Shown here piece by piece: positions 1 through 57,082 of a stretch of DNA of 64,000 nucleotides. The DNA is from Tribonema minus (taxonomy: Eukaryota > Sar > Xanthophyceae > Tribonematales > Tribonemataceae): positions 496,001 through 560,000 of the forward strand of contig JAFCMP010000135.1 of the NCBI GenBank assembly GCA_017506865.1. Reading direction: 5' to 3'. Every line of letters begins with the position of its first letter. The stretch's first letter is position 1. The notes beneath the pieces are model-generated. The model ran no database searches, had not been told where the DNA came from, and saw only the letters and a program-made list of their open reading frames with translations. The position numbers and the translations under genes were made by a program.

Positions 1-574
1 AACTTGTCCACCTTTTGTTGCTTGCAGCAGAACAGCCACGTCCACTTTTCTTTGCTTTATTCGGGGCAAAACTGCGCCTGGCGCTGTTCATACCTGATAA
101 AACAATGTATACCCTGAACTACACTTACCTCGAAGCATCGAAAATAGGGCATGTCTTGATATCAGTTGGCCTGCAGAGTATCAAGCACAACCTGTTGCTC
201 AGGATGCCATTCAGCACACACACTGTGGCACTGCAGCTCGGCAGACTTGTGCTATTCCTGAAACACACAGATACCTCATCCAGGACCCACCACTGCTTGC
301 TGGTGGTGCCCTAGGCTAGTTTTTGAGGTGGCAGCACAGTAACGAACTGTAAACGCCAGCTTTGCCTTGTGCGTATCCCGCTTTCACTGATGAGCCTGCC
401 CCTTTTCCGCTCGCTGCTTGTAATGACAGCAACTGGGGGGCAGCGCTGAGGCCTTTGCAACATGCTCAAAGGACGTCAGCCCCATCATCACATGGCCGCG
501 CGCCTCCTTCGGCACCCTGCCTTTTCTGCCAAGCAACACTGCCAAGGTAGTGAGGGCACCGTAACTGCATGCAG

Positions 575-3500: not shown

Positions 3501-3846
3501 GCATCCAGAACGCCCCCTACAGTTCCGCGAATGCACTTACAAACTGCGCTTCGTGACTCATGCGCCTGCGGCATTATTAATGTTCAGAAAATGCGGCTGC
3601 CTGGTTACATGGCAAATGCAGTTCATACTTCTACTTGGTGTGTACTAGCTGCTGATACACCCGCCCAAGCGCAGACACCAGCGGGGAGTTCAGCTCGAGA
3701 TGGGACCATCTGCTTCACTGTGCTCAACACTTACATGCCGCTTTCTCCACGTGCAGGTGGACCCACCCGCGGGTGGGCTGGTGGTTGAGCCGGTGATTGA
3801 GTTTGCTAGCTTGACGACGGGGCTGGGCGGGCCACGCCCGTGGATG
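575..3846 (+). CDS. N-terminal exons of the fusion gene, unknown beta-rich region
   Basis: Five candidate exons (575-730, 1300-1440, 2459-2634, 3217-3285, 3757-3846) precede the dehydrogenase domain. Each has an AG acceptor and a good GT donor, mostly in phase 0. The 1300-1440 exon reads like a beta-sandwich strand set (for example AIDIKVTAKTPSGTIITKT). The 2459-2634 exon has three Cys (CASEYSF, CNVTWC) and ends PMTVV. The 3757-3846 exon begins VDPPAGGLVVEPVIEF. I do not recognise a family. It could be a carbohydrate- or cell-surface-binding module fused ahead of the enzyme. Exon 575-730 is the least certain. A small exon between 1440 and 2459 is needed to reconcile phase. Confidence 0.5.
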
Positions 3847-6800
3847 GTGAGTTTTTTTCTGTCACAGAGCTCCATGTTGAACAAAACAAAGTCTTTCTTT
3901 GGTGTTGGAGCTGGTACTGCGAGAGAGACTGGTGCTTTTCGCTGCATTAGCTACAATATGAGTGCAGCACAATCAGGGAGCTCTGCGGGGGAGCGGGAAA
4001 ATCGTGTCATGCAGCCCTGTAAGCAATCGATTGAGCAGTGGGGCCACCGTAACACCCAATTTGTATCTTAATTGGAAGGTTTTGATGCCGGGACCATTTA
4101 GGTACATATGTCGGTTCCTCTCTGCACACTCCTCAGATATGGAAAAGGAGTCACGACACTGGCGGAAGCCTGTGACATGCCAATAGATGTGTCGAGTAAG
4201 TACACTCACTATGTGCGAGCGTCTCACAGCGCTCACTGAGTGCTCATAGACATCGTGCATGAGGTGACATTTGCCAATCATCATTGATGTCTTGCTGATA
4301 GCAACATGCCCCCAGCGCACTACCAGCACAGGACATCATTAACAGACACTCGGGCAGTGGTGCAGCCAGTGAACGGCCTGTTGGGGGAATGAAATTGGCA
4401 CAGTTGACACGGCTGCGCACACTTCGGCTGCATGTTTGCCTTCAACAGCCGGTCTCGCCTTGGCCCTTGCGTAAGTGCGCATCCTGCATGCTTCACAGTC
4501 TGCCACACTTGCTCAATCACCAAGTGCCTGCAATTGCTCGAGAGCTGCCGCCTCTTTAGTTGCGCTTTCATCACTTCAACCCTGCTGCTGCTGCCGGTGA
4601 CGTACCGCCAGATGCACTTTATGCCGGGTTCCAACATGTTCATCACGGTTCACAAGGAGGGCCAAGTGCGGCTGTTTCGGTCGCTCAACTCCAAGGAGTC
4701 GGATGCCATCACCATACTGGACATCAAAGACTCGGTGAGCCGCTGCGATAACTGCTGCGATAATGCACACGTGCATGTGCGCATGTGCAGCAACCTGCCT
4801 GCATATCAAACAACGGAGCAAATTACAGCACATGCAGAGACACCGTGAAAGGGAGAGTGCATGCCGTAATGATGCTGTTAGGACTCGCTGCACCCACACA
4901 TTCGGGCGACGTAAACATGAAGCCGCCGCTTGTTTGTGCCCTTCCTGCTGGCGCTTTGCTAAGATAGAGACTTTTAGCAGATGTATCTGAAGTGTTGGCT
5001 ACAAATACAAATGTGTTTTACCCCACGCATGTCCTTGGACATCACATCATAATTGTCAAATCTTGTGCCTCGCAGGTCAACAATCGCAGCGACAACGGCC
5101 TGTACACATGCCGGTTTGACCCCAAGTGGCCGGCGACGCCTTACATGTACTGCACCTACACAGATGACAGGTTCAAGGTGAGTACTGTAACACAGGACGT
5201 CCGCAGCAGCAAGTACAGGTGATGAGCAGTACCCGAAGTGCACAACTGAAGAATCTTTGAAGCAAGTGTAACAGAAACTGAATGTGCCCATCAATATGAA
5301 CATTTTGTGACCGTTGTGAAAGTTTGAGGCTTAGTCTACGCATGCGACATGGCATTGTTCTGCGACACGTGCAATATTTGAGTTGGGTGCTTGATGTGAA
5401 GATCAGCCCATGATACCAGGGGCAGGACCAGGGCAAGAATGCGAGTCATTGGCAATCAAGACTGCGTATATCGCCCGCCTTTGTGTGCATTTCCCGCTGC
5501 TTTTTGTTGTCAGACTCTGGCTCGACAGTGTGCTTTAATGCTGAATGCTTGATGTTTGCCTCCAGATACGGCATTCCTGACGGAGGTCGACATCATGCAT
5601 GCAATGTATCCTGATAAATGTCGAAGAAAGGCGATTCCTACTCTGGATGACGAAAGGCTGCATTGCACTGTCAGACCTTGCGCACATGTACTTCGAAGAC
5701 CCCATAATAGAAGTATAGATTTTTGCTCAAAGGACAGTCTGCACGATTGTTCCGCCTGCATTCCATTTTGCTTTCAGTCGAGATGGACTTTTGTGTGTGC
5801 TCACAGAGACTACTGTCATCGTTGCAGGAGGTAATGCAGGCTGCAGGCAGGCACGGCACACTGCCAGATGACTGCGCATGTGTAGCACAGTCCATTTGCT
5901 GAGGCTAGACACGCACGAAGGGGCACGTGATAATGCAGCAGCCTTTGCATAAAACACCCAGCAGCGGCTTCCACCAAGGATGCACTCAGCAGTGGCACAC
6001 CTCGGCAAACTGTCAAGCTCTAAGCTGCTTACTGTTCCAGCACTGTTCCTTTCAAACAAGCGTCGAGGCAGTGTACAGCAGCAGCGCTCTCCAAAGCTGC
6101 CCGCGCGCCGCTACATCGTGCGGAACATTTCCCCTTCGAAGTCACCTGCCATTGTCACGCACCTGGCCTGCTGCGCTCAAAGTGCTCAAGTTCAACTTGA
6201 ATACAACACGTAATGTGCGTGTCCGCAAGCCCGTGTGCACCCCTCTCAACGATGCACCTGCCCCATTTGCGTCATATGACACGCGCGCTGCAGGACCCGG
6301 CATTCGGTAATGACTACCCCAACAAGAGCCAGACCATGTACAACAACCGGCCAACACAGTGGCACGACGTGTGCTCCAGCGTTCCAGGGTGAGCGGCGAT
6401 GAAGCCCAGACAGTATCACGTTTGCGCTGTTCATCTTGCTCGGCTGCTGGCCCCCGCTGTGGTACACTGCATGACATTGTGCTCTTGTGACCCGCTGCGG
6501 CTGGTGACAATGCTCATATATTTGTTGCTTCACCGCATTGAGTACTTCAGAGCCACCTTGTGCAGCGCTGCTTCAAGTTCGGTTGCGCACATGCTGCGGA
6601 TTAGACGTGCAGATGCTCAAACGGCACTGTACGGGCCGTACTTTGGTTGAGGCACAGCAAGGCACACACGCGAGACACCTCCACATTTAGGTACCTCAGC
6701 GGACGTTTGTGCTCCTATAAGGCACAGCTGCGGCATGCAACAACACAGGCTGACCCTCGCTCCAGGTGGTTGGAGCGCAATTGCAGCGGCATCTGCACTG

Positions 6801-9800
6801 TTTTTGCTCATGCGCTGGAAAACGTTGCCCTCACGCATACTTCAATCTATCCACAATGCACCACACGCACTTGAGAGTTTGCATTTTCATAACAAAAGGA
6901 GCGCATGCCATGAGTTGCCATTGCAAAATGGTACCAGTATCTGGACACATGAATGCGCGCCAAGAGGCCAGCCAGCTGGCACGTACCTGTTGACATGTGG
7001 CAATTGCCAGCACGTGCCGTCCCGTACAGCATTTGACAGCGTCGGTGCTCTGTTGTACCTCTGCATGCCTCGCAGACGAGTTCTCTGGCAGTTGTCTGTA
7101 AGTACAAGGAGTGCATAGTTTGTCAACGTGTCGCACTCGTACACTCTGGAGCAGTTTCAACCTACGTGACGCTTTGTGCATACATTTGAAGCAATTTGTG
7201 CTATTGCACATTCCATGCTAGTTTACGCTGCAGTCAATATGTATCCCGCTGTACTAGTACTCAGCAAGCGGTGCTTGATTTCGCTGTGATGCGCTATGTG
7301 CAAAGCAATGATGATCGCTGATGCCTCCTCGTCACTCCCTGTTGCAGCAACGACGGCTATTTCTGCGAGGGCAAGATGCACATTGAAAGATTCAAGTATG
7401 ACCCAGCAAAATTTGCTTCAGCGGCACCAGGATCAACCATCACACCTCTGAGCTCCTTTGTGCTATTCAGGTGCGTACTTGTCTCAGCGACTGGACCTCT
7501 TGCACACTACTAGAAGTGAATGGATGCCCCCTCTCGCCACGCACTCATGTGTCAGTATGACCTTGTAACGCGTCAAAAACACCTCACACGAGATCTCTAA
7601 CACGGGGGGGTGGGGGGGTGGCTTGACCTTCATGCATCGCACGGGTCCGGAGGGACAAAGTGAAAGGCATGCTGCATAAGATTGTGTTGATGTTGAGTTG
7701 AGATAGCCTCTGCTTCATTTCGGCTGCTAAAATGGAAACTATGCAGACCGCTGCATCTCATATACGGGTCTTCCAGCGAACAGACTTGCTGCAGCCATGA
7801 TGGGGGTCATGAAGTTGTTGAAAGAGCTCAGCGCTACGCTGTATGAGCGCTTCTCATGGACTACTGTACTAAGTCCCTCAATTGATAATTGGTATACTAT
7901 TGAGCAAGCAAAAATGTGACCATGCAATGCAGCACCCATGTCACTGTTTTGAATGTTTTCCGTGTATGGCTGCTAGAGGTGCCAAATTTTTTGCGTCAAC
8001 AGTAGAGGCCAAGGCCATATGGGGGCCTTGGTCGGCACTCGACAACTCACCGTGGAGCCTCTGAGTCACACTAGACTACTAGTAGCACTCGGTGAACATT
8101 TTTTCTCTATCGAAGAAAGCCAATGTCCTATTGTTTCATTGTGCGGCTTTGATGCTACAGGGACTTCTGCAGCGACGGTGGGGGCCACGGGCTCAACGAC
8201 ATTGTGTGGGTGACTGTGCCCGGCAAGGCGGACGCTGAAAATCCATACATGGTGCTGGCCGTCGGCGACAAGTAAGCACATCAGCCGTTCCTGTCGTTCA
8301 AGCTGAACATTGCGCGTATGTGGGGATGCATGCATTGCTGCCCCTTCTGTGCACGTGCAAACAGGCTTCCATGCTTCACAACACCGACTACCGTCTTGTC
8401 GATACTTAAGGCCCGGGACGGTATTTTGGTACGTTTTTACTGCAGCAACAATAAGTACTCCCCCCCTTTTATCGGCTGCATAAAATTGCGCCCCCCCCTG
8501 TTTTTTCATCCTCCAGCAGGGCGCGGAATGCATGTTGTGATGCTGCTAGCAGCTAGATAAGGGCCTCGCAGTAGCCTATAATGAGCGGAGACAGCAGCCG
8601 CCTTCAATTTGTCAGACACCACAGATCCTCACAGCAGCTCCAGGAGGGCTCGAGTGCGTTCAAAAAACTGCGAAAACTTCGATCAACTTTAAGCGTGACC
8701 CTGGCAAAGTCGGTGACGGCAAAAATCTCCGAGCATAGCCCTTGCGACGCAACAGAAACAGGAATCAAGTGGTGAAGACCTGATCATGATGCTAATTTAA
8801 TTAGCGCCCCCCCTTTCAACTCGCCTCACAATAAGCACGCCCCCCCCCCCTCTTTTTACCCCAAGATCGAAATACCGTCCCGGGGCCTTAATTATCGACA
8901 GGACGATACTATTCATCATGTGCTTTATGTGCTTTGGAGTACTTTGCTGCAGATGAATTTGCTCATTGAGGATGTCCTCAAGGAATTGTGCGGTACATTG
9001 CTGGGTGATGCTTGCAACATCGAAGCATAATAAACGCGGTTTGACTATGTGAATTCTTAAAAGGCAACGCGCCCCCGCCAAGACAGCTGCGCAGTTGTTC
9101 ATGGTTGCAAGAGCATCTTTGTTTCAACAAGGGATGCTCACACGTGCTTGTTGCTTGGCGCCTGCTGTTTTGGTCGCAGGAGCAAGCCTAATGACGGAGA
9201 GGCAGACCCTGGCAGCGCTTTACAAACGTGAGGCAAAGTCGGAGTATAGAAGTGTTGACGTACTAGCACCAATATGCAAGCCTGTGCCAAGCAATACCAC
9301 ACACAGCTGTGACTTGTAAACCTGGTTCAATTTGACGAGTTTCCCTTCTGTTGACCTCCTTCTGAGGCACAACGCTAGAATATGCTACCTCAGAGTCTAC
9401 GGTTCATTAACAAGATTGCACTTCAAGACCTTCACGTTGTAATTGTGCACCCAAAAGGTGCTCTGCTTTGAACGTGTGGAAAGCTCATGCGCAACAACAC
9501 ATGCTTTTCCTGAATTTATCATGAAGTGCTCTCGGGAAAGCACGCAGGGTATCCTATATGCACACTTAAGACACTGTATGCTACATCTAGCGATTGTTAT
9601 TTGCCGCGTTGCTGGTGGAGGAGCAGGGCATGCAGGTGGCTGTGATGCCACCTTGGGCAACGCCTGCATTTGTGTATTTGTGCTGGCATGGCACATGGTC
9701 TTGAAAAAGTAGGAAAAGGCACTATGCAAGAAGAAATTATGCGCACAACGTGCCTGAACCTCTCCTGCATGCTCCATGCATCTGAAGCTCCCAATGCAAA

Positions 9801-12800
9801 TTTTTCTTCTGTGCATCACTCGTGTCAGGTGCGCAGAGCCGCTAAAATGAGGCAACAATCCTCGCTCCAGCACTTGTACTCTGCAACGCAAGTACTCGCA
9901 ACCGATATACCGGCGCCGTGCCCCGCAAATGTATGTGTTCAGCGGGAAAGTCACTGTAATCTTTGCAGTGTCAGATGGTTTTTTTGCATTGCAGCACGTG
10001 ACAACTCCTATGGCTCGTGTACGACAAGGGGCCGGGTGCACGCCACAGGCCGCCAAGAGCGGCTGATTGCGTGATCTCATCTCGCTCGAGGTGGTCGAGC
10101 GCCCTGCTTGTCGGTGCCTTGCCGTCCAAACAGCTCATATATTTAAGAAATGATGATTGAGGTCTTCTAAGAATGGCACCTAACCCCTGCTCACTCCTGC
10201 GCCCGGTTCCTATCATCTCATGCAGCACGTTATGGTAGCTTTTGAGAAGTCGGACCATCATGATGCGCAGCAACTCTGCATATGCATTCAATGCGCCTCG
10301 CGTACTGCTGTAACAGTTGTCCCACGTGCCAATAATCTGCACCTTCTGACTTCCGTCGCTGGCGTTCTGGCGCATGACAGGATGTGCTGGGACCCAACGC
10401 AGGGGGCGCCACAGAATCAGTTCCGCGCCATGCGTGACGCTTTCATGAATGGCAAGGTGAGCTTGGGGGCTGAGCAGCCATGGTGTGACTCGTGTCACCG
10501 CGAAGTAGCTGCTTGCAGCACTTGCGACGTGGCACTGTGTGGAATGGCTGACAGCGCTCTCCGCTGTTCCCAGTTTGCACAGTGTCGCATTTTGATGGAT
10601 GTATGCCAGTGTCCTCTGCAATCTGTGATGCCTTCATGACACTGCTTCAACAAATTCAATTCAAAGTTGCAATTTGATTTTACGTGGCCGTCGCAGTGTT
10701 GGGGGGCGGCTCCGTTATCATCCAGCTCAACAGGGGCACAGACCTGGTTCACCCGCTGGACGCTGAACTTACGCTGTTCGCTCAAAGCCACTGTTGTGCT
10801 GCGGTGCCTATCCACGACAGGAAACACACAGAAGACAGCTGCTGCCGCCGCCGTTACTGTACTAACTTGCGTATGCCCACGCTGCACGACAGATGGTCGC
10901 CATCCCGCGCACCAAGTACGCCAAGGACTCCACCGCGGCACGCCTCGTCAGGGGCACCGACTACTTCTGGGCAGCTGCAGGGCTCCGCAACCCGGTTCGC
11001 CTGGCGCTCGGGCCGGACAACTCAGTCTTTGCGGCGGTCGTGGGGGATGGTGCGTGTAATTTGTTCTCACAATTACGCAGTCACTGTGCTGCGCACCAGC
11101 TGAACATCATATCATACTGTCATGCAGCGTGCGAGACATCATGGCAAGACTCAGCGACACAGATCAGTGTGTCTGTGCTCACGTTAATTTGCGTTGCCAT
11201 ATGCACATGAGAGTCTCGCATATACATTTGATTGCAGGTTGTGCCTGCATTAATCCACTGTTGCATACTTCTATCTTTGTTATTAGAGGAACTTGAGCAA
11301 TGCACCCGCAGCTAATGCACTCACATGCTCGCTGTATCGCTACCATCAGGCGTGAGTCTGACGTCGGAGCTCATCGTGCAGGTCACAGGCGATGACTTTG
11401 CAACCGCAAGAAAGGTGTGTGCGTCCGCATCAGCTTCAGTTTGGTACTTGTACTTCAGGTATTGACAGATGGATGCCAAGGCAATGTATCGCAATGTGCA
11501 CATAATGCTGGTGGTACAGTAGTGTATGGGATATCCGAATTTACGCGCCCGCCTCTGAGGCAGTCGGATGACACAAATATCATCTTTAATCAATTACTCA
11601 AGTTTCAATGCCATGCATGTAAACTTCATGGGTGTCGTTTGCATAGCCTGAGAGGCCCTTGTAAAACAGTGGCTAGCAGGTACTTCAAGAAGGATACCAG
11701 GAGCTGAGACATGCATGTGCATTGCGCTTGTATGCACATTATGTGGACGCACGCCTCCACATGCATGCATGCGACCATAGCAATCAATACATCGATTCGT
11801 TTTTGCACGGTATCTTCGAGATTTTTGCCATGTGCTCCTGCATGGTGTTTTTGCGGGGATCTTTGCGATTTTCGCCATGTGCTTCTGCAGCTGGCAGGAA
11901 GCTCGCGCTACCTTCGTGCGCGCCACTGACTGTTCCTGTCGCCGTCTGCCGTTGCAGCCCAACTTCTGCTGGCCCTGCGTCGAGGGCAGGGCCATCGACT
12001 CCGTCAAGGAGTACAAGAGGAGAGACGGCGTCAACGCCGCGGGATGGACGCTCTGCGACAGCTGCTGGCACTCACGCGACAACCCCATCCCGGGTGAGAA
12101 GGCAAGTGGCCAAGTCCAACGCAAAGTTGTACTGCGGGTCTGACAACGTGCACTGCTGGGCGATGCACAGCGAGGCTTCCAGTTGAACTGCGTACATGTT
12201 GAGGGGGGGGGGGGGCTAGATGACAGGCTGTACCTTGTGTGGCAGCTGCGAGGGTTACTGGGCCAGCTCCCGCTATAGTGACAGGGAATTCATTGCAGTT
12301 GTGTGCAGAGTACAGGAACAATTGCACACCCTGAAGGGTCAGTGGAGGGGTAAGGATGGCATGGCGCAACCTCTGCGGTGATGGTTTTAGCGGACTCTAT
12401 TGTACGTCAGAGGCATATTAAGTTTGCACCCTTTTTGGATGTGCATGTACTTTTTATTAAGTCTCGCTCGGGGCGCGAAATAGCCCAAGATGAATGGCAT
12501 CTAACTTGAAGCTTGCTGTACGGAATCTACACTGTGCATGCACATGTGTAGGCCAACGTTTGTACCATCATGACCCCCTGGGTCGTTTGCCTGGAGGTGC
12601 GTGCATTTTACTGCATGTTTCTCTCCTTCAGTATAACTGGTCGTTACTGAGACCCTGCAGATGTGTAATCATCACTTCCATTTTGTCCATTTTGTGCTAC
12701 TGTACTGCAGTATGGTGTAGCATGATGAGGATGCCTGTCTAAGGCCTGCGGGCAGGGGCAGGTTTAGTATTGTGAATGAACAGATTTCTCCGTGCAGGTG

Positions 12801-18800: not shown

Positions 18801-21800
18801 GGGCAATGCGACAATTGCAAGGCCCTCAAGGCTGCTGCTGCAACCCACTTGCCAGACCGTTGCCAGTGATTTCATCTCTGACATCTTGTCGCTATCCATA
18901 AGGATGAACACACTTGCGCTGCACCAAGTGCAGGACGCTGCAGATACGCTGTCGATTTGCACTACAGAGGTAGTGCTCAAAATGTTTTGAATACCCATCA
19001 TTTGCTGCCAGGCGCTGCCGGCTTTGCGCCCTTTATCGAGAGCCAACGTAAATGTATGCTCAACCCCATTCATGCTGCTGGCCTTGTGTGACCTGGCTGG
19101 TTGTACATGGTGAGGGGTTCTGAGAAGATGTGTGCAGTTATGGCAATTGAAAAACGCTTCCGAAATGTGCATCCAATCAGGAGCACATTTACATCCAATG
19201 AGCATGCTCGACCGAAGCCAATAAGGAGCACATTTCCATCCAATGAGCATGCTCGACAGAAGCCAGTATTTCTGCGCCACACGCAGGATCTGTACAGTAT
19301 TGCAGCTGTGTGAGATTGGAGTACACGTGAGGCAATTGGCTTTCTGGCTGAAAATGTCTGACCAGGTAGAGCGCGTACCTCTTGGTATAGTTCCCCTGCA
19401 AGGCAACTGGAGATCTGATTGAGTAAGTCTGACCAGCCAGTGCGAGTACGTTCTGGTATACTTCGAAGTAGCAAGAGTGCCCCCTTTCGCAACAGCTGCA
19501 GATGCCGTCGTAGAGCGCTGCACTCTAATGCTCGCATCAAACTGGCTTCAGACGCACCTGCTTACCCAATACTGAGTCTGACAGTGTCTCCCCATGCGTG
19601 CGTGCACACAGGACCCGCGCCTTCAACCTGTACAATCCCACCATACGAATGAAGGCCTGCGGTGAGTGCTCAGCGGTTTTGCAGTGCGCGTGTGCACTCC
19701 CCCCCTTCCCCATGCACCCACCCACCCACCCCCTTCCTGCTCCACTTTGTTGCTAGTCTGGCGTGCTTCATTTGCGTTCTCGAATGCTCTGGATGTACTG
19801 GGCAGAGTGCACAGCAGTGTTCTTGTTTTGAATGCACAATCTTCAAGTGCCTTGACTGAGATGACAGCATCCTAGGTTGCCCCTGTTTGCCACTCCCAGG
19901 TATTGTTGGAGTTGGTCTTCTTTTCGTCGTGAACACTGGCATGTCAGCAAGGCTGATGGCTGCCACCCCTTCTGAGGGGCCCTCGCCCTTCCCGGAAGTC
20001 TGTGCTGCCGCGCCGTTTCTGACAACGTTTTTCTCCTCTCTGCAGGGAAGTACCTGATAACCCTCACAAACGACCTTGCTGCGGGGTGGGGTGACCCGAC
20101 GGGCGCCATCAACACCCTCCGAGATCCTCAGGTGCAGACCGAGCGCTGCAGACATCTCATCATCGTTAGCAATGTCGCAGCATGTCATTTTTGACGGCCT
20201 TAAGGTCGCCTAGGAAAATAGAACTGGCGATTGGTTGGCCGCTGCGTGGAGGCGTCATGCGCACTTTCTGCTGAGACGACTGGTGATGAGAGGCCTAAGT
20301 AGGCTGGGTACATTGCAGATCAGCGGTGTGCGTGACCATCGTGGCAGTTGCTGCTTGCGCCCCAAGACCCTACTGACAGCAGGCATTCAAGCAGCTGTGT
20401 TAATGCCGGCCACCTTCATTCGCTCTAGTTTCACACTTTGCAACGCTGGCGCACTCTGCGATTTCAGATCAACCGCAGTGTGCATCTAGGCCGTGTGCTG
20501 CATTTCTGCTGTGCGTTGGTTGCCCCCCCCCCCCCCCCCTCCTCACACCATCATCAAGCGCAACAGTGGGAGCGCGGCTGTTGAATCGCATTCTGCAGTC
20601 ATACTCTGTGGCGTGCTGCTGGGTGCCCTCGCATACTTTATGTAGTTGTTTGCCTTTTGCATTTGTGCACATCAGCTGAGTTGGTCAAACAAGACTTCTA
20701 GTAAAGGCGGAATGAGCGTCTTTGCACGGGAACTCAGAGTGTTGCACCTCAAAAAGGCCAAGCCAGACACGAATGTGTTGCTGCGTGCCGCGCAACCTAC
20801 CTACCCTATCCCTAACGCCAACCCTCGCCCTGCCCCCACAGCGTACCAACCTGCACGTGCACGGCCTGCACATCAGCGGCAACGGCGCGGTTGACAACGT
20901 GGTTGACGTGCAGCTTTCGCCGGGGGGGGGACACCTGTAAGTGGTGCGACGGTCAGCCTTGCCCTGCCTTTTTACACCAACAGAACCGGTTCGATTGACT
21001 GGTGCTGGCGCCTTGATCTCAGACCGAGATTCACTGTTTGAATCAGGCTCGCTGTCCAATTCGCTGTCCACCATGCCTGAGTCAATGCATGCACCGATTT
21101 CTGAGTCATTGTGCGAGTCTAAGTCACGCTCTGAGTCGACCGAGTCAGAGAGTTTCAACACTGCGCTCCCATCACGTTGCACTCCGCGTGCTGACACATG
21201 AGCGAGCGTTGAGGTGGCGATTCGGCATGTCCATGCACAACGCCGAAGCCGATCTGGTGCTTCAGGACTTGCAGTACTTCATGCTATCCGAGCTTATGAT
21301 TGTGAATGGCGGCCTACTATCGTCTGACGCCTTGATTCAGCCAAATATTGCACAGCGATTCATGACGATAGATGCAGTGAGCCAGCGCCTGACAGCACCA
21401 TGCACAGAGGCAGAGCTGGTACCTCAGACACACCTTTATTTCTGCTTCAGTTTTGGGCGCTAACCTGGCCGTCCGCGCCCCCTTGCCGCAGGTACAAGTA
21501 CGAGATACCCTGCGACCACGCGAGCGGGCTGCACTTCTACCACACGCACCACCACGGATCTGCGTCAGTGCAGGTGAGGGATTGACTTGGTGTAGCGTCA
21601 CCTGTTGCTGCACCTCGCACCTCACCTGCAGCGCAGGGGAGCGGCACCTGGACGTCGCATGAGTAAGATCACTGCTGAGTCCGGCGACCAGGACAGCCAC
21701 ACGCTCCCGGTTGGTGTTTGTTTGACCTGCCTGATGCCTACAGCCTTTCTGAGGCTTTTTTTGTGATGTCGACATCTGATCATGGCTCATCGTAGCAGGC

Positions 21801-24800
21801 CCGGCACGGCACCACTTTACAGCCCCTTGTCTTCACTGCAGCCGCGCAGGCGTACAGTAGCAGGCAAAAACAACGAGGTCTAGTGATTGTTGCTGTAAGT
21901 CACCTCTCTGCGCACGTGTATTGCCACTAGCAGAAAGCAAGGATTACAAACTGCGTCGGAAGGAGCAGGTGGTCAACTCGTGTTCTTTGACCTTACAGTA
22001 GTGCGCAACCACTCGCATCAGCATTACGGCTCCTTCTTGGTAAACATGCGAGGCTGTTGAGCGTCAGGGGGTACAGGCAAGGTGTCCAGGTATCTGACGA
22101 TGATGGCTTCAGTCGCGATTGGGGTCAGAGGTAGGGCGGGGGGTTAGAGCTGCTGCAGGGCTGTTTAAATCCTGTTGCTTCATTTTTTGCAGCAGTAGCA
22201 CGCGTCAGCAATTGTAGCTCATCTAAGCATGGTTCACAATGCCGTGTAGTCACGGCGGCTTAGCCTGCTGCCCAATCTAGTGTTTATGCCGTGGCAATAA
22301 AGCTGAAGGATTCTCTCTCTGGTGAAGCATTGTGCCACACTCTTCAGGATGAACAACTTTTTTGCGACGCATGCACGTGCCATGTTTGGTAGTGCCGCAA
22401 CGTGCAAATGCTGGACGCTGCTTGCGCCCTTCACAGTGATTTGGCTGTTGTGTGACCACCGGTTGTGCGTGGTCCGACTCGCATGATACTCAATCAGGCA
22501 GCGCGCAGGAACTCTCACACTATGCAAGTCTATCGTGCGTCCCCCATCGCGTCGCCTGTCTTATCACCTCAGTGCGTCTGCACACGCGTAATTTGATTTT
22601 CATCTCCGTAACATGCTCGCAGGCCGGCGGCGGCGCTGTTGGGCTGATTGTGATTGAGGACAACCCACAGGTGAGGCCGCTTGACTGCGCTGACCTACAG
22701 AATTTGAACCTGAATTACGCTCGCCTGTGTCAACCCTGTTGTGTGAGGAACACGATACGGTGCTGCGCTGATGCACATTGATGACGCTGCCATGTCGCAC
22801 ACGATACGGTGCTGCGCTGATGCACATTGATGACGCTGCCATGTCGCACACGCCAGCCGTGCCCGCTGAGCAATTGCAGTGTGGCGCCGCACATTCCGCA
22901 GTGTGCACAGGGTCAGCAGCTGCATCTTGAAGTTGCGCTCATAGCTGCGCCTGCCTTGGGGGGGGGGCTTTGCAAGAATTTCAAGGAGGAAGTAAACAAA
23001 AATCTGTGAGGGCTTGGTGTGTTGTTGACGCTGTGCCCCCCCCCCCCTGCCCCCTGCGTGGCTGCAGTTTGAAGGCACGCTGCCGGGCTGGTTGAACGGC
23101 ATGCCGGAGCGTCACCTGCTGATTGAAGTTGTGGAGCCGGAGGCCGTCAGGTTAGTTATCTGGGCCTGCGAGGCAACGCGTGGCTTCATCAAGTGCAGAC
23201 TGGGAGAGCATTACTTGGGCGTCGTGCAGTTCCTTGCTTCATTGACAGCATGCGGAGGCAGGACGAGCGCGCAGTCTTGGTGGAGCTACGCCCGCCCTGA
23301 GTCACAAGTCACTCACCAACCATACTGTCACTTGCAGGTGTCAACTTCTAGGACTGTTATACTCACATCAATCCGATGTAGTTTCCTTGTGAGTTGCGTA
23401 GTGCCATTGCCCTGAAACCCCCAGGAAAAGTTCTAGGTGAGCAGCATGTCAGTTGCAGGCGAGCCAGATTTGCACAACCACATTTGCATCGCAGGTATGC
23501 GTCCTCTTTATATCTCTTGTCTGCGGCACTGAGTAATTCTTTCTTTGATTATCTCCTGCAACACCAACTGCCAGGGCGCTGCTCCCAGGGATGTTAACGA
23601 CGTGAAGAACACCCGCATATGTTGTTGTCTGCGAGTGCTGAGAAGTATCACAGCATTTGACTGCTTAGCGTTGCTGCAAAGCGCAGGTATATGAAGTGCA
23701 TGCAGGGTTGTGATGTTCACGCACTTTAGGGTTTCCAATGCAAACAGCATGCAGTTATGAACTGTTCAGGCTGCCTCGTGCCACCAAGAGCTTGCAATTG
23801 CAGGTGCATTTTGTACGTGCATGTCAGACGGCGTGCACCAGCGTCGGCACGCTTGCATCAGCGTGTACTGTGTCAGGTAGTACACCCCTGTACTGGCGTA
23901 CCCATGTTGGCTTACTCAAACATCACGTGCACAGCTCAAAACTCGCCGCTCTCGATGCTCTCCAAACTTGCACAACGCAGGGGCTACGCCAAGGACATGA
24001 GTGACACGGTTTACACCAGCACAGCTACGAAGGATCACTATCTGATCAACAAGTGCACCAGCGTCAGTGTCACGGTGAGCGATGTGCTGCTGGCGGTGCG
24101 GTGTGCTGCACTTCAATGTGACATGCCAATCAAAATGCGTAAAGTCCCCGTAGTGCGAAGTCAAGCCATCACCACTCACCATGAACCCTTCTCAGGAGTA
24201 AAGGTAGACCTAAGACCTGTGTTAGTCCCCCATTCCCCTCCCCACAACCTGCTGCGGCCGGCACGGGCACCTCCATGCATGCACACGCCTTCAAGCATGT
24301 AATCATTGTTGGCGCCGCGATGCCTATGCCCCCGCCCCCCCCTTTATACATACATACATGCTACGTAGTACATACACTCCCCGCCCCTCACCCCCCACAT
24401 AACATGCCCCCCCCCCCCCCCCCCCCCACGCCTGCATCAATGCGTGGCGCACTCACAGGCTCCCGCCGGGCGCTGGACGCGGCTGCGCATGCTGCACGTC
24501 GGCGGCGCGCTCAACGCCAAGATGCGCATCGGCGGCGGCGGCAGCAGCGCGGCGGCGTGCGCGGTGGGGCTCGTGGCCAAGGACGGCGTCTACGTGTCGC
24601 ACGTGCCGCGCGCGCTCGCCACGCGCGAGGTGTTCTTCTCCGTCGCCAGCAGGGCGGACGTCGTCGTCAGGTGCGGCGGCAACGACGCGCATCGCTTCTG
24701 GATGCGCAGTGGCATGCCTTCTGACGTTGTCAGCATCAGCGGCGGCGTGTGGCGGCGGGCTGCTTGTCAGGACTGCTGCCCAAGCGCAGGGCATCTGTGT

Positions 24801-27800
24801 CTCAGGGATTGTCAATGACCTGGCGCTACGGTTATGGCTAGACGCGCCCGGTCTTGCACACTCTGCTCGCCTGTCCGTATGCTGTACAGGCGTCCGACGC
24901 CAGTGACATAGCCCCTCTCGAGCCTTCCGCTCGATTGCAGTGGGATCCCATGCGGCCAGCGAGTCCCTTCTGAGCGCAAATTATCAACACAGGACGTTGT
25001 GCGCACACACCATGATTCTTATTGGCAAGCGTTACACCATCACTCGCTCAACAAGGCACTGAGCACGATGTTGTGTGTGCGTTCCGCAGGTGCTCCACAC
25101 CGGGGACGTATCCGCTCCAAATCCTGCGGCTGGATCCCAGCGGAGGGGGCGCTTGGACCGACATCGGATCCCTCGCGATCACGAAAGCAGACGCGGTGAG
25201 ATGCATAGCGTGCCAGCACTCGATGGCTGATGCTCTGCAGCGCTCAAGCATCTTGATCATCATCTGCACTCTGTACCCCATGCTGATTGGCTCAGCTTCT
25301 GGCGAACTACTTGAAGTTCTTGACTGGGGTTGGCATAAAGCCCAGAGCGTTGCTGCGCTGGCTCTTCTGCACACCTGCCAGGCAGTGCAGCCCTATATGG
25401 ACACAAACAAGAATCGAACAGTAGTGACAAACACAACTGCTTGATATACATCGCTTGCTGTACACGAGCACTGTGTGCGCTCGCAACGGGGACAGCGCAG
25501 TGACTGAGTGACCTGCCCTGCTGAGACGAGTTGCAGGTGGTATTAGGGCTAGGGTCAGGATTTGGTTGATTCAGCTCTGTGCCACTGCCTTGCTGGCGCC
25601 ATACACGCCCTTGCAGGGTTTATGTTTGTGACATTGCCAATTCAATGGTCGCATGTGTAACGTTGTGCTGCCTGGCACGCAATGGGCTAGGCTCCTCTCA
25701 CAGCTTATGTGGGTGAATGCTGCCAACTAGTTCATCTAGCTGACTGAACCCGTGTCCTTTGCCTGTTCAGGTTCCTGGCCCGTATGGAATCGCGCCGCTG
25801 CCGACATGGAGACCTTGCAGGTGAGGACCAGCTCTTGCAGTGATTGTGATGACCGCAACGATAAGTAGCTGCACGCATTGCAAGAGGACCCTGACAAGTA
25901 TGCTCACAACAACCTGTCACAGTTGGTCACATTGTTGCTACATGCATAAGTTTACCTGGTATTGAAATACGCGTTGCACCCATGTGATTGTGAAACTGGT
26001 CTTTGCTGGACCAGCGGTCCAGCTGCTGGGAACTTTTTTAGTGTGCTGCAAGGTTCCCCTGCTGTACGATGGAATCATTAAAATGCCTACATGATGGAAG
26101 TCAGAGCTGAGGATATGGGAAATTGCTGCCCAGGCTGCAGGATGTGACCTTCAACATGCAATGCGTGACCGCAGAACCAACAGCCAAACATTTGCGGGTG
26201 GCTGATTTACACCCGTACGTGTACGCACTGGCAGCGGCATGTTGCTTGGCAGTATGATGTAGGGCCACTACGCGCATGGTCGCCAAACATACAGAAGCTG
26301 AGCTCAGCATATGCGGGGGGGCCGGGGGGGGGGGGGGCTTCAATCAAGATCGCACAACAGCGCAGGAGGTGAACACAGTACCGCCATGCCGCTACTTAAG
26401 CCAGCCGGTCACCTAATTAAAAGAGGCATTTGTATACGTCTGACAAGCAAATCGAATGACGCCTTGGTATCCCCAGGCTTATATTGAGCTGACCTCTATA
26501 TGCCATTCTTACGAGCCACACAACTGTTTGCAGCGCAGTACAGAAACGGCGTTTTAGTTCAAGTTGTTGTTGAGTTTTGCATGTTTTTTCCGGCGGCTCC
26601 TGCGTACGAAGAAACAGGCTCAGAAGTGGGCTGCAGACGTTGGAGCGCAGCGTTGCATCACAAATATCTCCAAGAGGGCGCCCTGAGCCTCTCGTGCAGG
26701 CAGCAACAGCAACTTCAGTTCAGCGCGCAGGCAGCTACACGCACAAGCTTGTTGCACACCAACTGGGGGGTCAGCTTTTATTGAATCCAGCGAATGTATT
26801 ACCTAGGCTTTGATAGTTTTGGGCCCAAATATCACTTTGATTAGGTGTCCGTCCGGCTTAACTAGCGACATGACGGTAACTGTCGACATCCGCTGACGTG
26901 CCCCCCCCGCTGTGTCCCCTCTGCCACAGGCCTGCATACCTCCAGAGCCTGCTCCTCGAACCGGTGCCCACCGCCAACCAGTACAGTGTCCTCATGCAGA
27001 CGGGCGTGAACGGCGCGCTGTACTCCGAGGGTACAGTGCTCAAGCAAGTGCACTTGGGCCAGACGTACGAGTGGCAGCTGGAGAACACCATCACGCACCC
27101 GTGGCACATGCACGTCAACCACATGCAGGCAAGCGTTGCAGGCGAATCCTGCGGGATGAATTGCTGCCGTGGTCAGCGAGCGAAGCGCAGCAATGATGAG
27201 CGTCAGCTTTATATATTGTAGACACTTTGAGCAACAGCGCTGAAAGTATAATAAGTTATGGACTTTTGGTAGCAATTATGAGTGTCAGCTGCATGCTGTG
27301 GACACGCAGCTGTCATGTGCAGGCGCACTGCTCTCGTTGGGGATATGCCCCTGCTTGCTGTGCACTGGCGCGCTCTGCGATGCAGATCAGATCTGCGGGT
27401 TCACACACTCTGCATCAAACTCAACATGTGTGATGGCTTTGTGCAACAACTGGCGCTGATCAACATCCACGCCTACTTGCTTCGTGCGGTGATGTCGCGT
27501 TCACTACCCCTCAGGTTGTGACAACTTCTGGTGTTCCAGAGTACCCCGGCTGGCACGTTGCTGGTGACTGGGTCGACACCTACTCAGGTGAGGATGACAG
27601 CTGCATGTCAGTGAAATGCTTGAAGTAGCTGTGGGAGGCATACGTGACGTTCACTGCTGCATGCTGCATGTGCAACTTACGCCCATTGCCAGGGAACCAC
27701 TAAAAGCTTTCCCACAACTCTTACAATCCTGCAAGTTTCTCGTAAGGTTACAAGGAGGTACTTCAGAAGTATTCTTTAGTTGTTTATGCACAGTTATATG

Positions 27801-30328
27801 TTGGAGGATGGTTGAGCAAACATGTTGTTGACAAATCAGCAGAGAGGTATGCTTGCCTTTGCTGCTCTTGCGAGGGCAAACAAACGGTGCACAATATGAG
27901 TCTTGTGCCGTGAGACGATACAGCGGCATTGGATGACCTGACCGTGCACCAGTCAGAGCACACTCACGTGCGTGTACCCGCTGAAACCGCCTCTTGCCAA
28001 CCCCTGGCACGGCAAACTCGCCCAATGTGCATTGTGTCGACATTCATATAGCGTGTAACACCACGTGCTTTGCTTGCGCCTTGCCATGAACGTTCCCATC
28101 TCAGGGCCTGATGGCAAGGTCCGCTTTCGCCCTGAGCGGTACGCGGGTTACATGATTGTTCACTGGTGAGTTGACACCTGGCAGTGCCTGTTCAACTTGT
28201 ACAGTAGAACACTGCATCACCACTGCAAGATTGTCAGAACTAAAGGGTAGCGCATGCAGAACACATGGTGACAGTCTACGTTCGCTGACAGTATGTTTCA
28301 CTGGGCGTGCTGCATTGTGACGTCAAACGTTTGCCTCAAGGTAGGGGGCAAGGGGATGTCAACAACGATGCCGCGGCCTGTTGCACAGCAGCGGGGCCGG
28401 ACAAAGCGCTGTCACTGCAGCAGTCTGCTGACCAGCGGTGGCAAGCTCATTCATATTCACGCCCACTCATCATTTGCGGTTGCTTCTGTCCCGCTCACAC
28501 AGAGTGTGGAGCACATGCGTGTTGCTCTGCACAAGAACGTAGCTTGTGCGCGTTGCCAGCCATCAGAGTGTGTGCTGCAGCCCTGGCTGAACGAATTCTC
28601 TCGTGTTCCACTGCTTCTCGCGTATCTCACTGGCAGAGTTACTGCGCATCAGGGACATGGGTTCAATCACGCCTGTGGTCGAGGGTGTACAACAGCAAGT
28701 TGCAGTGTGTTATCACATATGCAGAGGATGACACTAGGTCTTGCCTGGTGTTTGAAGATTTTGCTGATGCAGTCAGTACTGTCGCATTTTGACATGGCGT
28801 GCTCCATGGTCACACATCTGCAAACACTTAAGCGCGCCACCTGCGCAGGCAACGTTGGAGCAACTGGCTGCTGTAGACTGGCCATTGGGCGAACTGAAAT
28901 ATTGCAACCACAAATGTGGTTGTGGAGGCTGTCATGGCACACACATTGATGGGGCTAATTCGCAAGCTACTTCTGCTGCAATTTACATTGCTGAACGTGG
29001 ATCAAACAGAGTTCTTGAAGTTCAACAACTTTGGAATACATTATTCAGGGAGCATAGAAGTGTGGAGGCTGATCACAGCATCCCCCTTGTCCTCACCTCG
29101 TGCCATTGCAGCCACGTGTACGTGCACGCTGACAAGGGCATGATGGCCCTTGTCACTATCAACGGCGTAGGGCCATCTGAAGGCAACCAGGTACGTGGGT
29201 GCTAAGAGTGCATAGCCTTACGCAGTCTGCTGGCGCCTGCCGCACAGCCCAGCCACTGACGGTTGCATGCACCCTGGTTTGCTGCGCGGTGGCTTATACT
29301 GTAGCAGTGCGATGCTATCGCAAGGTTTGTCGCGGCCCGCAGCTTGGCGTAAAATCATACTGAGCTCTGTCATGCAAATTACATGGCTTGATTGTATATT
29401 CTTATTGTTCGAAGTACGTGGGTTGATCAATGCAAATCGGTTCCGAGACTGAGGCTCCAGGGCCCTGCGCTTGAATACTGCATCGGCACGCTTTTAGCCG
29501 CAAGGAGAGTGTGCGGCAGCGCTCAGCTGCTATACATTGAAAAAGCACGCTGAGTACGGGTAAACCCGGCAATGTATGCTGAGCGTACTGTTGTTTTTCC
29601 TGTTGGCATAACTTACCGAGTTGGTAGACAAGTAAGCTGCATTGTACTTGAAGTATAGTACTTCTTGGAGTATAACATGTTCACTTGATGCCGTTGCCAC
29701 CCCTCACGTCAAAGCGCTCTTGATCGAAGCGGTGGCAAGCTTTTTTACCACACCTGGTTGCGGCGCAGCCTCCCAGTATTTTGTGGTCGACCCACCAAGC
29801 CGCAGAGGAGGGCACAAGTTCAACGCACAGCATCACGCCCTAGATGCACACACTTGGATGCATAACTTTATGAACGCGACGAGCCTGTAGATGAGGCATG
29901 TCACGGCGCAGCATCCCTCAGGCTCCCGCCTCCCAATGGCATCAACTCTTCCGTGTGACAGCACTAAGCACCAGCTGGGCATCACCATCATCGCGCAAGT
30001 TGCAAATGCACCTCAAATTATCGGGTTGTGATGTCATGTGTCCATTGACAGCGTGCACCGAAGCGGTGCCCATGTCCAAGGCGCCTCCGCAGCTCGTAGA
30101 GCACTGCCGACACGTGTACACGACAACATTGCATTGCACGACAGCCTCATTCAGCCCCACACATCAACGCTCCGCACCTCAGGCCGCGGACCCGACCTCT
30201 CGGGTGTGCCCCGCACCCTAACTGTGATGCTGTTGCAGTGTCACTGCTCCGGCAGTGAAGCGCCAATCGTGGCTCACAGGGCTGTGCCCGAATCTGCAAG
30301 GTGCAGTGGAGCGGCGCGGAATTCATGA
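575..30328 (+). CDS. Glucose/sorbosone dehydrogenase - multicopper oxidase fusion gene (multi-exon, 5' end open)
   Basis: A single plus-strand gene reconstructed from splice sites, phase and motifs. Supported exons: 575-730, 1300-1440, 2459-2634, 3217-3285, 3757-3846, 4612-4734, 5076-5177, 6294-6388, 7348-7470, 8161-8271, 10381-10456, 10893-11049, 11350-11414, 11958-12093, 13025-13087, 14107-14187, 15151-15234, 15984-16025, 16699-16783, 17353-17470, 18467-18535, 19612-19661, 20046-20131, 20842-20936, 21492-21573, 22623-22670, 23068-23150, 23935-24074, 24459-24670, 25090-25195, 25771-25820, 26930-27128, 27515-27587, 28105-28165, 29112-29190, 30239-30328. Phases agree at all joins except 1440/2459, 12093/13025 and 23150/23935, where a small exon is probably missing. 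About 1,150-1,200 aa are visible. The predicted role is oxidation of a sugar-type substrate by the propeller and four-electron reduction of O2 by the copper domain. The start codon and any signal peptide lie upstream or are unrecognised. Confidence 0.82.
4612..16783 (+). CDS. Glucose/sorbosone (PQQ-type) dehydrogenase domain exons
   Basis: Exons from 4612 to 16783 spell a glucose/sorbosone dehydrogenase six-bladed propeller in the expected order. The entry strand is MHFMPGSNMFITVHKEG. Next comes SDNGLYTCRFDPKWPATPYM, matching the family pattern DRGLLGIAFHPDF..YVY. A GGGHGLNDIVWV segment (8161-8271) may carry the active-site His. YFWAAAGLRNPVRLALGPD (10893-11049) holds the diagnostic GLRNP. 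FCWPCVEG (11958-12093) corresponds to the family GWPCYEG. IYKLPLLEY, ITAILYYTGTALPEVFR and TVFFSDYTKQCTYYLE (family YRG.LP..Y...FGDY) follow, then GPDGFIYGTDF. Family members oxidise aldoses or related sugars with PQQ and Ca2+; the cofactor is not provable from sequence. The domain ends in a GC donor at 16784 (AG|GCAAGT), supported because it restores phase to the next exon. Confidence 0.82.
8389..8908. mobile_element. MITE-like TIR element in an intron
   Basis: The left end 8391-8426 (CCGTCTTGTCGATACTTAAG...) and the reverse complement of the right end near 8870-8906 (TCGTCCTGTCGATAATTAAG...) match over about 36 bp with three substitutions and one indel. Both continue through CCCGGGACGGTATTT. 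TA dinucleotides flank the ends (8389-8390, 8907-8908), as in Tc1/mariner-type insertions. The interior has no coding capacity but contains three short AATAAG/GCG-polyC segments in the same orientation. It lies between the dehydrogenase exons ending 8271 and starting 10381. Confidence 0.6.
15951..15970. repeat. Poly-C tract before an acceptor
   Basis: A near-pure C run ends about 10 bases before the CAG acceptor of exon 15984-16025 and forms its polypyrimidine tract. Similar C or G runs occur near 7601, 12202, 16271, 20523, 22960, 23038, 24408 and 26316. Homopolymer length here is a likely source of assembly error. Confidence 0.8.
17353..21573 (+). CDS. Thr/Pro linker and first cupredoxin half of the multicopper oxidase
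   Basis: Exon 17353-17470 starts with a linker (APTATPTKAPPLP) and continues in phase from the dehydrogenase exon into a region with paired Cys. Exons 18467-18535, 19612-19661 and 20046-20131 give the first beta strands. Exon 20842-20936 carries TNLHVHGLHISGNG, the first copper motif (HxHG). Exon 21492-21573 carries GLHFYHTHHHGSASVQ, the second (HxH) plus the HHHGS variant. Phases are 1-2, 2-2, 2-1, 1-0, 0-2 and 2-0, so every join matches. The linker between two catalytic folds is the best evidence that this is a natural fusion rather than two adjacent genes. Confidence 0.85.
18578..18780 (+). repeat. Diverged tandem duplication, about 115-bp unit, intronic
   Basis: GGTGTAGCCATTCTCAGTC near 18579 and GGTGTAGCCGTCCTGAGCC near 18695 start two copies. 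Both continue through GCTGCAAATGCCAT / GCTGCAGATGCCAT and GGTACGCTGA. The copies lie in the intron after exon 18467-18535. Confidence 0.6.
19179..19268 (+). repeat. 45-bp tandem duplication, intronic
   Basis: Two adjacent 45-bp units (19179-19223 and 19224-19268) start AGGAGCACATTT and share CATCCAATGAGCATGCTCGA with a few substitutions. They lie in the intron before exon 19612-19661. Confidence 0.85.
22623..25820 (+). CDS. Middle cupredoxin domain exons of the multicopper oxidase
   Basis: Exons 22623-22670 (GGGAVGLIVIEDNPQ), 23068-23150 (FEGTLPGWLNG...LLIEVVEPEAV), 23935-24074 (KLAQRRGYAKDMSDTVY), 24459-24670 (GRWTRLRMLHVGGALNAKM), 25090-25195 and 25771-25820 form the central domain. GRWTRLRMLHVG matches the family pattern G..WR.RIINAG at the start of this domain. 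The 24459-24670 exon is markedly GC-rich compared with the AT-balanced introns. The join 23150/23935 does not match in phase (2 out, 1 in), so a short exon is probably hidden between them; 23804-23876 is a possible but imperfect candidate. Confidence 0.72.
22752..22849 (+). repeat. Perfect 49-bp tandem duplication, intronic
   Basis: Units 22752-22800 and 22801-22849 are identical, beginning ACGATACGGTGCTGCGCTGA and ending CCATGTCGCAC. They sit in the intron between exons 22623-22670 and 23068-23150. Identity implies a very recent duplication or an assembly artefact. Confidence 0.9.
24406..24427. repeat. Poly-C tract
   Basis: About 20 consecutive C shortly before the acceptor at 24458 of the GC-rich middle-domain exon. 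It probably acts as pyrimidine tract. Confidence 0.8.
26930..29190 (+). CDS. C-terminal copper-binding exons of the multicopper oxidase
   Basis: Exon 26930-27128 encodes the third copper motif, ITHPWHMHVNHMQ (HPxHxH), and ends in a GC donor (CAG|GCAAGC). Exon 27515-27587 encodes PGWHVAGDWVDTYS and exon 28105-28165 ends YMIVHC. The next exon, 29112-29190, supplies HVYVHADKGMM. Splicing across the split TG|C codon creates HCHVYVHADKGMM, the type 1/type 3 motif HCHx3Hx4M with the Cys ligand and an axial Met. With the two upstream motifs all ten ligand positions are present, so the copper centre should be functional. The order and spacing fit a three-domain laccase/CumA-like oxidase. Confidence 0.9.
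30239..30328 (+). CDS. Candidate terminal exon of the fusion gene
   Basis: The last copper exon leaves phase 0 at 29190. An acceptor TGTTGCAG at 30231-30238 opens a phase-0 reading frame of 29 codons (starting CHCSGSEAPIVAHRAVPES) to a TGA at 30326-30328. There is no homology support, so the choice rests on phase, acceptor quality and lack of another candidate. The true end may differ. Confidence 0.35.
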   Translation, partial: CHCSGSEAPIVAHRAVPESARCSGAARNS

Positions 30329-57003: not shown

Positions 57004-57082
57004 ACAGCCTGCAGTAACAGCCTGCACGAGATGCGGATAGGTATGTAGCTGTAGCATGTAGCACCATGGCGTAGCAGAGATC

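Follow-up and report, generated by a model that had tools for sequence, protein, structure and literature searches.

Does the yellow-green alga Tribonema minus, a stramenopile of the Xanthophyceae, make a sugar-dehydrogenase-like propeller and a multicopper oxidase as one protein, and if it does, what might such a protein be for? The question is raised by a stretch of its genome of 64,000 nucleotides (contig JAFCMP010000135.1, positions 496,001 to 560,000 of the forward strand; called the window below). A preliminary description, made from the letters alone, had seen there the motifs of a GSDH-type dehydrogenase and of a full multicopper oxidase in consecutive exons joined by a Thr/Pro linker, and had rightly looked to algae for further cases. 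To the first half of the question we can answer yes: a single polypeptide with a GSDH half, a Thr/Pro linker and a complete multicopper oxidase is confirmed by a transcript-named open reading frame (ORF), by homologous proteins and by a structure model. The second half allows only graded answers.

One gene across the junction

The gene was first assembled from splice sites and then completed with P0001 (proteins and loci are cited by our own handles), an ORF of 988 amino acids with a transcript-type name. Within the window it has 37 in-phase exons on the + strand, from 430 to 30221 (Table 1), which make up a single open frame of 1151 codons whose sole stop lies at the very end. Every one of the 37 acceptors reads AG; of the 36 donors, 33 read GT and three GC, at 12101, 16783 and 27128 (3/36 introns). 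P0001 aligns from residue 162 of the gene model to its end and so reaches 33 exons, of which it covers the foremost only partly. The identity is 95.2% over 990 columns, a single gap being opened, and the alignment runs through the junction of GSDH half, linker and oxidase. Given the splice sites, the open frame and this match, the exon structure is not a chance outcome.

At the junction itself, the exons first proposed (16699-16783 and 17353-17470) are exact to the base, and the alignment with P0001 bears out their compatible phases and the linker in one frame. The intron that separates them opens with a GC donor and, if retained, would bring in-frame stops. Four ORFs cross the junction (P0001, P0003, P0006 and P0024). 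Their names, in the style of Trinity/TransDecoder, are our ground for taking them as transcripts, and P0006 and P0024 carry one common Trinity gene number. According to the preliminary description, transcripts broken between 16.8 and 17.4 kb would have refuted the fusion; P0001 reads through.

It might still be objected that the fusion is an artefact of gene modelling or assembly, or two genes read as one, and NCBI's own protein for this gene (P0002, JKP88DRAFT_244414 of Tribonema minus) is indeed wrong near the junction, where it skips 17353-17470 and reads on into the GC-donor intron. By eye, this model is misled at all three GC-donor introns, and the GC start of the intron 16783-17353 is probably why it omits the linker exon and reads the intron instead. 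However, P0001 spans the junction, on which ground we rejected the two-gene reading, both domains are also found in four more T. minus proteins and in one from Chrysoparadoxa, and by eye there is no start or signal peptide ahead of the oxidase in its own exons, the linker coming first. We think that the objection has next to no chance of being right.

The motifs on which the proposal had been built all stand. On the GSDH side, SDNGLY starts at 5088, GLRNP at 10980 and FCWPC at 11964; on the oxidase side, HVHG starts at 20854, HHHG at 21547 and HPWHMH at 27096, and HCHx3Hx4M is formed by the splicing of 28105-28165 to 29112-29190. The span given for the gene, 4612 to 29190, was too short at both limits, as there are more exons at 430-3846 and further upstream, and the gene ends with 30183-30221. 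This true last exon, like exon 9180-9227, was supplied by P0001; on its evidence it replaced the open frames after 29190 that had been candidates for the last exon. An exon at 656-730 ('VTLCLASQ', also in P0002) was left out of the model, since its removal lets the T. minus protein align gap-free, by eye, to P0003 in that region.

Exons 1-4 are tentative, three of them having weak homology to P0003 (E 0.003, 0.89 and 0.30) and the one at 1300-1440 none at E 1. Further tentative 5' exons lie upstream of the window, in L008, at 949-1052 (by eye against P0003) and 9122-9232 (E 0.007). The N-terminal domain encoded by exons 430-3285 (about 25-285 of P0003) has a fold that we leave unassigned: the P0003 slice matches nothing in Pfam, even with the threshold at E 10, and by eye a similar stretch is present in P0004.

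The Pfam scan and the first protein search used the model without exons 430-546, 9180-9227 and 30183-30221. The assembled protein scores 29.1 bits with GSDH (PF07995; curated cut-off 25), 32.1 with Cu-oxidase_3 (cut-off 21) and 55.4 with Cu-oxidase_2 (cut-off 20.4); the middle domain, Cu-oxidase PF00394, has no Pfam match at E 1. Membership in GSDH is divergent among six further fusions: P0006 reaches 25.0 bits, P0004 and P0007 fall below the cut-off, and P0003, P0005 and P0008 have no PF07995 match at E 0.01. Both folds are seen in the model of the joined protein, a check that had been proposed from the start: the GSDH half is predicted as a six-bladed propeller, and the predicted oxidase aligns to Thermus laccase over 500-967.

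The family and its origin

Three protein searches, with about 8,000 candidates scored in each, and a profile of each half found both domains together in 12 proteins (P0001-P0008 and P0022-P0025), five of them from T. minus (P0002, P0004, P0007, P0022 and P0023) and one from Chrysoparadoxa australica (P0025). With five or more fusions in T. minus, the family would seem to be of use to the lineage rather than a curiosity. Two further T. minus loci, L001 (G000:C290) and L002 (G000:C457), hold oxidase genes of the same family; neither has a stretch at least 90% identical to the five annotated fusions, and L003-L006 are likewise distinct but weaker. By eye, the frame of L002 continues into a CBM6-like stretch.

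In the oxidase tree (47 rows, including 27 of 80 prokaryotic loci, with P0003 and P0004 left out for their incomplete oxidases) the 13 algal-type domains form one clade (99/95), and in the GSDH tree the 12 fusion domains lie on one side of a branch (100/100) from 10 bacterial rows. The trees were rooted only for drawing, and no dating is taken from them. A single fusion event followed by duplications would fit these sequences. P0009-P0011 carry a separate label but fall within the algal-type clade of the oxidase tree, and for that reason two changes of the fusion label have to be counted there. The models of P0009 and P0010 are truncated and retain a piece of the GSDH end (E 0.0017 and 5e-5 when 13 sequences were searched), and P0011 begins inside the oxidase.

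We rejected a prokaryotic source of the fusion itself on the following searches: in the flanks of the best 80 of 280 prokaryotic oxidase loci (4 kb at most, and less where a contig ended) the GSDH profile found no frame at E 1e-3 among 3,932 frames of at least 80 amino acids, and the GSDH profile search of the protein database (7,998 candidates) returned bacterial GSDHs without oxidase. Among plasmids, 69 records match P0001, and none covers 80% of it among the matches listed (5 of 69).

The C-termini vary between members. Long extensions are present in P0007, P0008 and P0009, with weak Pfam matches below cut-off in P0008 (GH115_C, E 0.02; CBM_6, E 0.059) and P0007 (CBM_35_2, E 0.22) and no match at E 10 in the C-terminal stretch of P0009. 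Hydrophobic tails are found in P0004, P0007, P0009 and P0011, and P0010, a cut model, also scores. In P0005 the region of about 1140-1600 is a second oxidase repeat from which most copper motifs are gone, the whole protein having one HPxHxH and one HCH motif only. The window gene has no second repeat, long extension or hydrophobic tail.

Active sites and proposed function

In P0001 as in the window gene, the oxidase half carries all four copper motifs, with their ten His, one Cys and axial Met. For the GSDH half, active-site columns were taken from a profile alignment of the 12 fusions and 10 bacterial relatives to Acinetobacter sGDH, in which faulty models affect the propeller columns of P0002 (position 369) and P0022 in places. 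The invariant His falls on sGDH His144 and GLRNP on Arg228-Asn229. This His stands in 22/22 rows and Arg228 in 21/22 (12/12 and 11/12 of the fusions), and P0001 and the window gene have both. Sequence and transcript-named ORF establish, then, one polypeptide that has a full set of copper ligands and, in its GSDH half, the His and Arg of catalysis together with the Asn; the two folds are those of a model.

GSDH propellers pass electrons to an outside acceptor; laccases need an outside donor, from which they accept single electrons, and turn O2 into water. The tethering of the one to the other suggests that the oxidase serves the dehydrogenase. As the most probable reading we propose a secreted oxidoreductase in which electrons would pass from a sugar-type substrate to a quinone-type cofactor and on to the tethered copper oxidase, which would reduce O2 to water, and we give this proposal a little less than an even chance. 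The protein, including the window member, would be exported, and its propeller would oxidise a sugar or the end of a wall saccharide. The cofactor, pyrroloquinoline quinone (PQQ) or something similar, would be scavenged, and residues unlike those of the bacterial set would bind it. Electrons would move singly to the type-1 copper, directly when the halves are docked or by a small shuttle, and the trinuclear cluster would use four of them, from two substrate molecules, for each O2, without making H2O2. The more specific claim of a natural single-chain sugar:O2 oxidoreductase, in which a quinone-type dehydrogenase and a laccase would be wired together, with four-electron reduction of O2 to water and a cofactor pocket unlike that of sGDH, is a tentative one that we consider doubtful. 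To our knowledge it would be the first case of each kind: of such dehydrogenase-laccase wiring, and of a quinoprotein in photosynthetic stramenopiles. In agreement with the preliminary description, which knew of no such enzyme, the accessible portions of the open-licence literature yielded no paper describing the GSDH-oxidase architecture, which is weak evidence of novelty.

Several points weigh against the proposed oxidoreductase. The true 5' end, with any signal-peptide exon, was not found in the window or in L008. The model has a predicted template-modelling score (pTM) of 0.57, so that it fixes neither the docking of the halves nor the distance of electron transfer, and Pfam scans of the window protein and the further fusions saw no heme or other relay domain between the halves. 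Asn229 is kept in 8/12 fusions (10/10 bacterial relatives), and P0005 has His in place of Arg228. The sGDH residues Lys377, Arg406 and Arg408 are missing in 12/12, 11/11 and 11/11 testable fusions, the exon for the last two being absent from P0002; P0001 has Thr, Gly and Thr in these columns. A Lys or Arg does follow the Lys377 column in 11/12 fusions, which is not a clear replacement because sGDH itself has Arg378 there. Other positions of the propeller, Arg132, Arg230, Lys237, Arg332, Arg369, Lys417, Lys435 and Arg465, hold a basic residue in 11/12 fusions or more.

How much does the loss of these anchors mean? We take Arg406 to be the third PQQ anchor of sGDH. The other two, Lys377 and Arg408, are named as its PQQ residues in the accessible text of PMC6881789. 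The bacterial GSDH relatives also lack the three anchors (9/9 testable), so that the loss looks like a trait of the subfamily and not decay of the algal copy. Nor does it exclude PQQ, because the fungal dehydrogenase CcPDH binds PQQ by partly different residues. If Arg621 of CcPDH corresponds to sGDH Arg406, as we would deduce from the accessible text of PMC6881789, that column is Gly in 11/11 testable fusions.

The missing anchors also speak for the chief rival, in which the propeller would be a non-redox glycan binder tying a laccase or metallo-oxidase to the cell wall, and catalysis would be left to the copper oxidase alone, with phenols, Fe(II), Mn(II) or Cu(I) as substrates. The propeller of HHIP binds a protein partner, and HHIP structures are among the matches of the GSDH profile in the PDB (E ~1e-9). 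The weak carbohydrate-binding and glycoside-hydrolase-associated matches at the C-termini of P0008 and P0007 (none in P0009) would also suit a binder, as would the NCBIfam result for the oxidase half, whose top model is CueO (75 bits, far under its cut-off of 525). However, a His in every row and an Arg in all but one would be odd in a pure binder (no row being a demonstrated enzyme), and the top PDB match of the profile is sGDH (E 4e-22), not HHIP. As far as sequence goes, the lost anchors would favour this rival and the conserved catalytic residues disfavour it, and we regard it as unlikely.

A second rival keeps both domains active but unwired: the dehydrogenase would reduce a diffusible quinone or phenol, the oxidase would re-oxidise it, and the linker would merely keep the two together. 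The linker is flexible in the model (predicted local distance difference test, pLDDT, below 50 at P0001 474-486), mediator cycling by a separate cellobiose dehydrogenase (CDH) and laccase is documented in the accessible part of PMC10146812, and free PQQ served as a redox mediator with CcPDH in that of PMC5960967. On the other side, it requires a mediator in the wall, and it shades into the main proposal with its optional shuttle; we think it improbable, more so than the binding propeller.

Should the wired sugar oxidase be real, it would be an oxidase making no H2O2, useful for biosensors and fuel cells, a single chain that practically combines the two electrodes of an enzymatic fuel cell, and it would show how these algae may process wall or exudate sugars using O2. 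The family also opens a direct test of the use of PQQ-type enzymes in eukaryotes beyond those studied, the fungi.

Table 1. Exons of the fusion gene in the window, with the evidence for each
Feature	Position	Strand	Evidence
Exon, N-terminal domain, family unassigned, tentative	430..546	+	AG/GT, in phase; P0003 37.5% identity, E 0.003
Exon, N-terminal domain, tentative	1300..1440	+	AG/GT, in phase; present in P0002; no P0003 match at E 1
Exon, N-terminal domain, tentative	2539..2634	+	AG/GT, in phase; P0003 weak, E 0.89; not in P0002
Exon, N-terminal domain, tentative	3217..3285	+	AG/GT; present in P0002; P0003 weak, E 0.30
Exon, GSDH propeller begins	3757..3846	+	AG/GT; P0001 match starts within; P0003 E 0.007
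GSDH exon, start in the preliminary description	4612..4734	+	P0001 ORF
GSDH exon, SDNGLYTCRFDP	5076..5177	+	P0001; motif at 5088
GSDH exon	6294..6388	+	P0001
GSDH exon	7348..7470	+	P0001
GSDH exon, His on catalytic His144 of sGDH (P0001 H168)	8161..8271	+	profile alignment, P0001
GSDH exon, SKPNDGEADPGSALQT	9180..9227	+	recovered from P0001
GSDH exon	10381..10456	+	P0001
GSDH exon, GLRNP = Arg228/Asn229 equivalents	10893..11049	+	motif, profile alignment, P0001
GSDH exon	11350..11414	+	P0001
GSDH exon, NFCWPCVEG, GC donor	11958..12101	+	motif, P0001
GSDH exon	13025..13087	+	P0001
GSDH exon	14107..14187	+	P0001
GSDH exon, FFSDYTKQC, sGDH Lys377 column = Thr	15151..15234	+	profile alignment, P0001
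GSDH exon, NGFTHLT, sGDH Arg406/Arg408 columns = Gly/Thr	15984..16025	+	profile alignment, P0001
Last GSDH exon, GC donor	16699..16783	+	P0001
Linker (PTATPTKAPPLPS) and oxidase start	17353..17470	+	P0001; linker pLDDT <50 at P0001 474-486
Oxidase exon	18467..18535	+	P0001
Oxidase exon	19612..19661	+	P0001
Oxidase exon	20046..20131	+	P0001
Oxidase exon, copper motif 1 HVHG	20842..20936	+	motif, P0001
Oxidase exon, copper motif 2 HTH within HTHHHG	21492..21573	+	motif, P0001
Oxidase exon	22623..22670	+	P0001
Oxidase exon	23068..23150	+	P0001
Oxidase exon	23981..24074	+	P0001
Oxidase exon, middle domain	24459..24670	+	P0001
Oxidase exon	25090..25195	+	P0001
Oxidase exon	25771..25820	+	P0001
Oxidase exon, copper motif 3 HPWHMH, GC donor	26930..27128	+	motif, P0001
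Oxidase exon	27515..27587	+	P0001
Oxidase exon, HCH first part	28105..28165	+	motif, P0001
Oxidase exon, remainder of HCHVYVHADKGM	29112..29190	+	motif, P0001
Last exon with stop codon	30183..30221	+	P0001 C-terminus

Beyond the gene, the right half of the window looks rich in retroelements, with long open frames on the + strand at 36262-40539 and 57062-60907 matching RVT_1 (E 4e-7 and 6.5e-11). Tandem repeats lie at 32136-32500 (18 bp x 20), 46303-46791 (197 bp x 2.5) and 50285-50927 (193 bp x 3.4), and an Rfam search of the whole window gave no match. In L008, by eye, a retroelement-like block with similar ends occupies about 2100-7600, apparently in the intron of the fusion gene between 949-1052 and 9122-9232, and a unit of ~300 bp stands in about three tandem copies at about 7860-8820.

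Comparison with known systems

Taken singly, each half has stand-alone counterparts. Thermus laccase and the CueO-type multicopper oxidases are such enzymes, and the best bacterial relatives of the oxidase half (L010-L013, stop-to-stop frames of 713-757 amino acids) have no GSDH frame in their fetched flanks. Bacterial sGDH (1c9u/1cq1) and the Asd-type proteins (3a9g, 2g8s, 2ism) also stand alone; sGDH has the Lys377, Arg406 and Arg408 that the algal family lacks, and is itself absent among the 50 fold matches listed. The nearest propeller relatives that we found are bacterial GSDH proteins (P0014, P0016, P0012 and others, many with PKD repeats), which like the fusions lack the three anchors and have the RNPxR Arg in 9/10; unlike the fusions, they have no copper-oxidase domain in the precomputed Pfam lists. 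The bacterial group is of interest in its own right, as it keeps the catalytic His, Arg and Asn without the known PQQ anchors of sGDH.

Systems of CDH and laccase resemble the role proposed for the fusion in that a copper oxidase couples sugar oxidation to O2, lactose being oxidised by way of a mediator; they differ in that the two enzymes, both fungal, are separate proteins and the mediator is added (accessible part of PMC10146812), and CDH is a flavoprotein (that of PMC6881789).

Closer still is CcPDH, a PQQ-dependent pyranose dehydrogenase from a fungus, of family AA12. Structures of AA12 were absent among the 20 distinct PDB sequences at E 1 or better and among the 50 fold matches listed, which is not evidence of absence, no direct AA12 alignment having been made. 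From the accessible parts of the papers, CcPDH has the domain order AA8 cytochrome, AA12, CBM1, with catalytic His363 and Arg430, and binds PQQ by Arg273, Arg621, His539 and His560, of which Arg621 is conserved in bacterial enzymes (PMC6881789); the Kd for PQQ is 1.1 nM (PMC6881789, PMC4133262). Its cytochrome domain supplies copper lytic polysaccharide monooxygenases, and free PQQ can mediate (PMC5960967). It differs from the algal fusion in that its partner is a b-type cytochrome giving electrons outside, with no oxidase. Like the fusion, however, it joins a eukaryotic six-bladed sugar-dehydrogenase propeller to a redox partner in one chain, keeps the catalytic His and Arg, and has PQQ-binding residues partly unlike the bacterial ones, and by analogy we would regard it as the nearest precedent for the fusion of T. 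minus.
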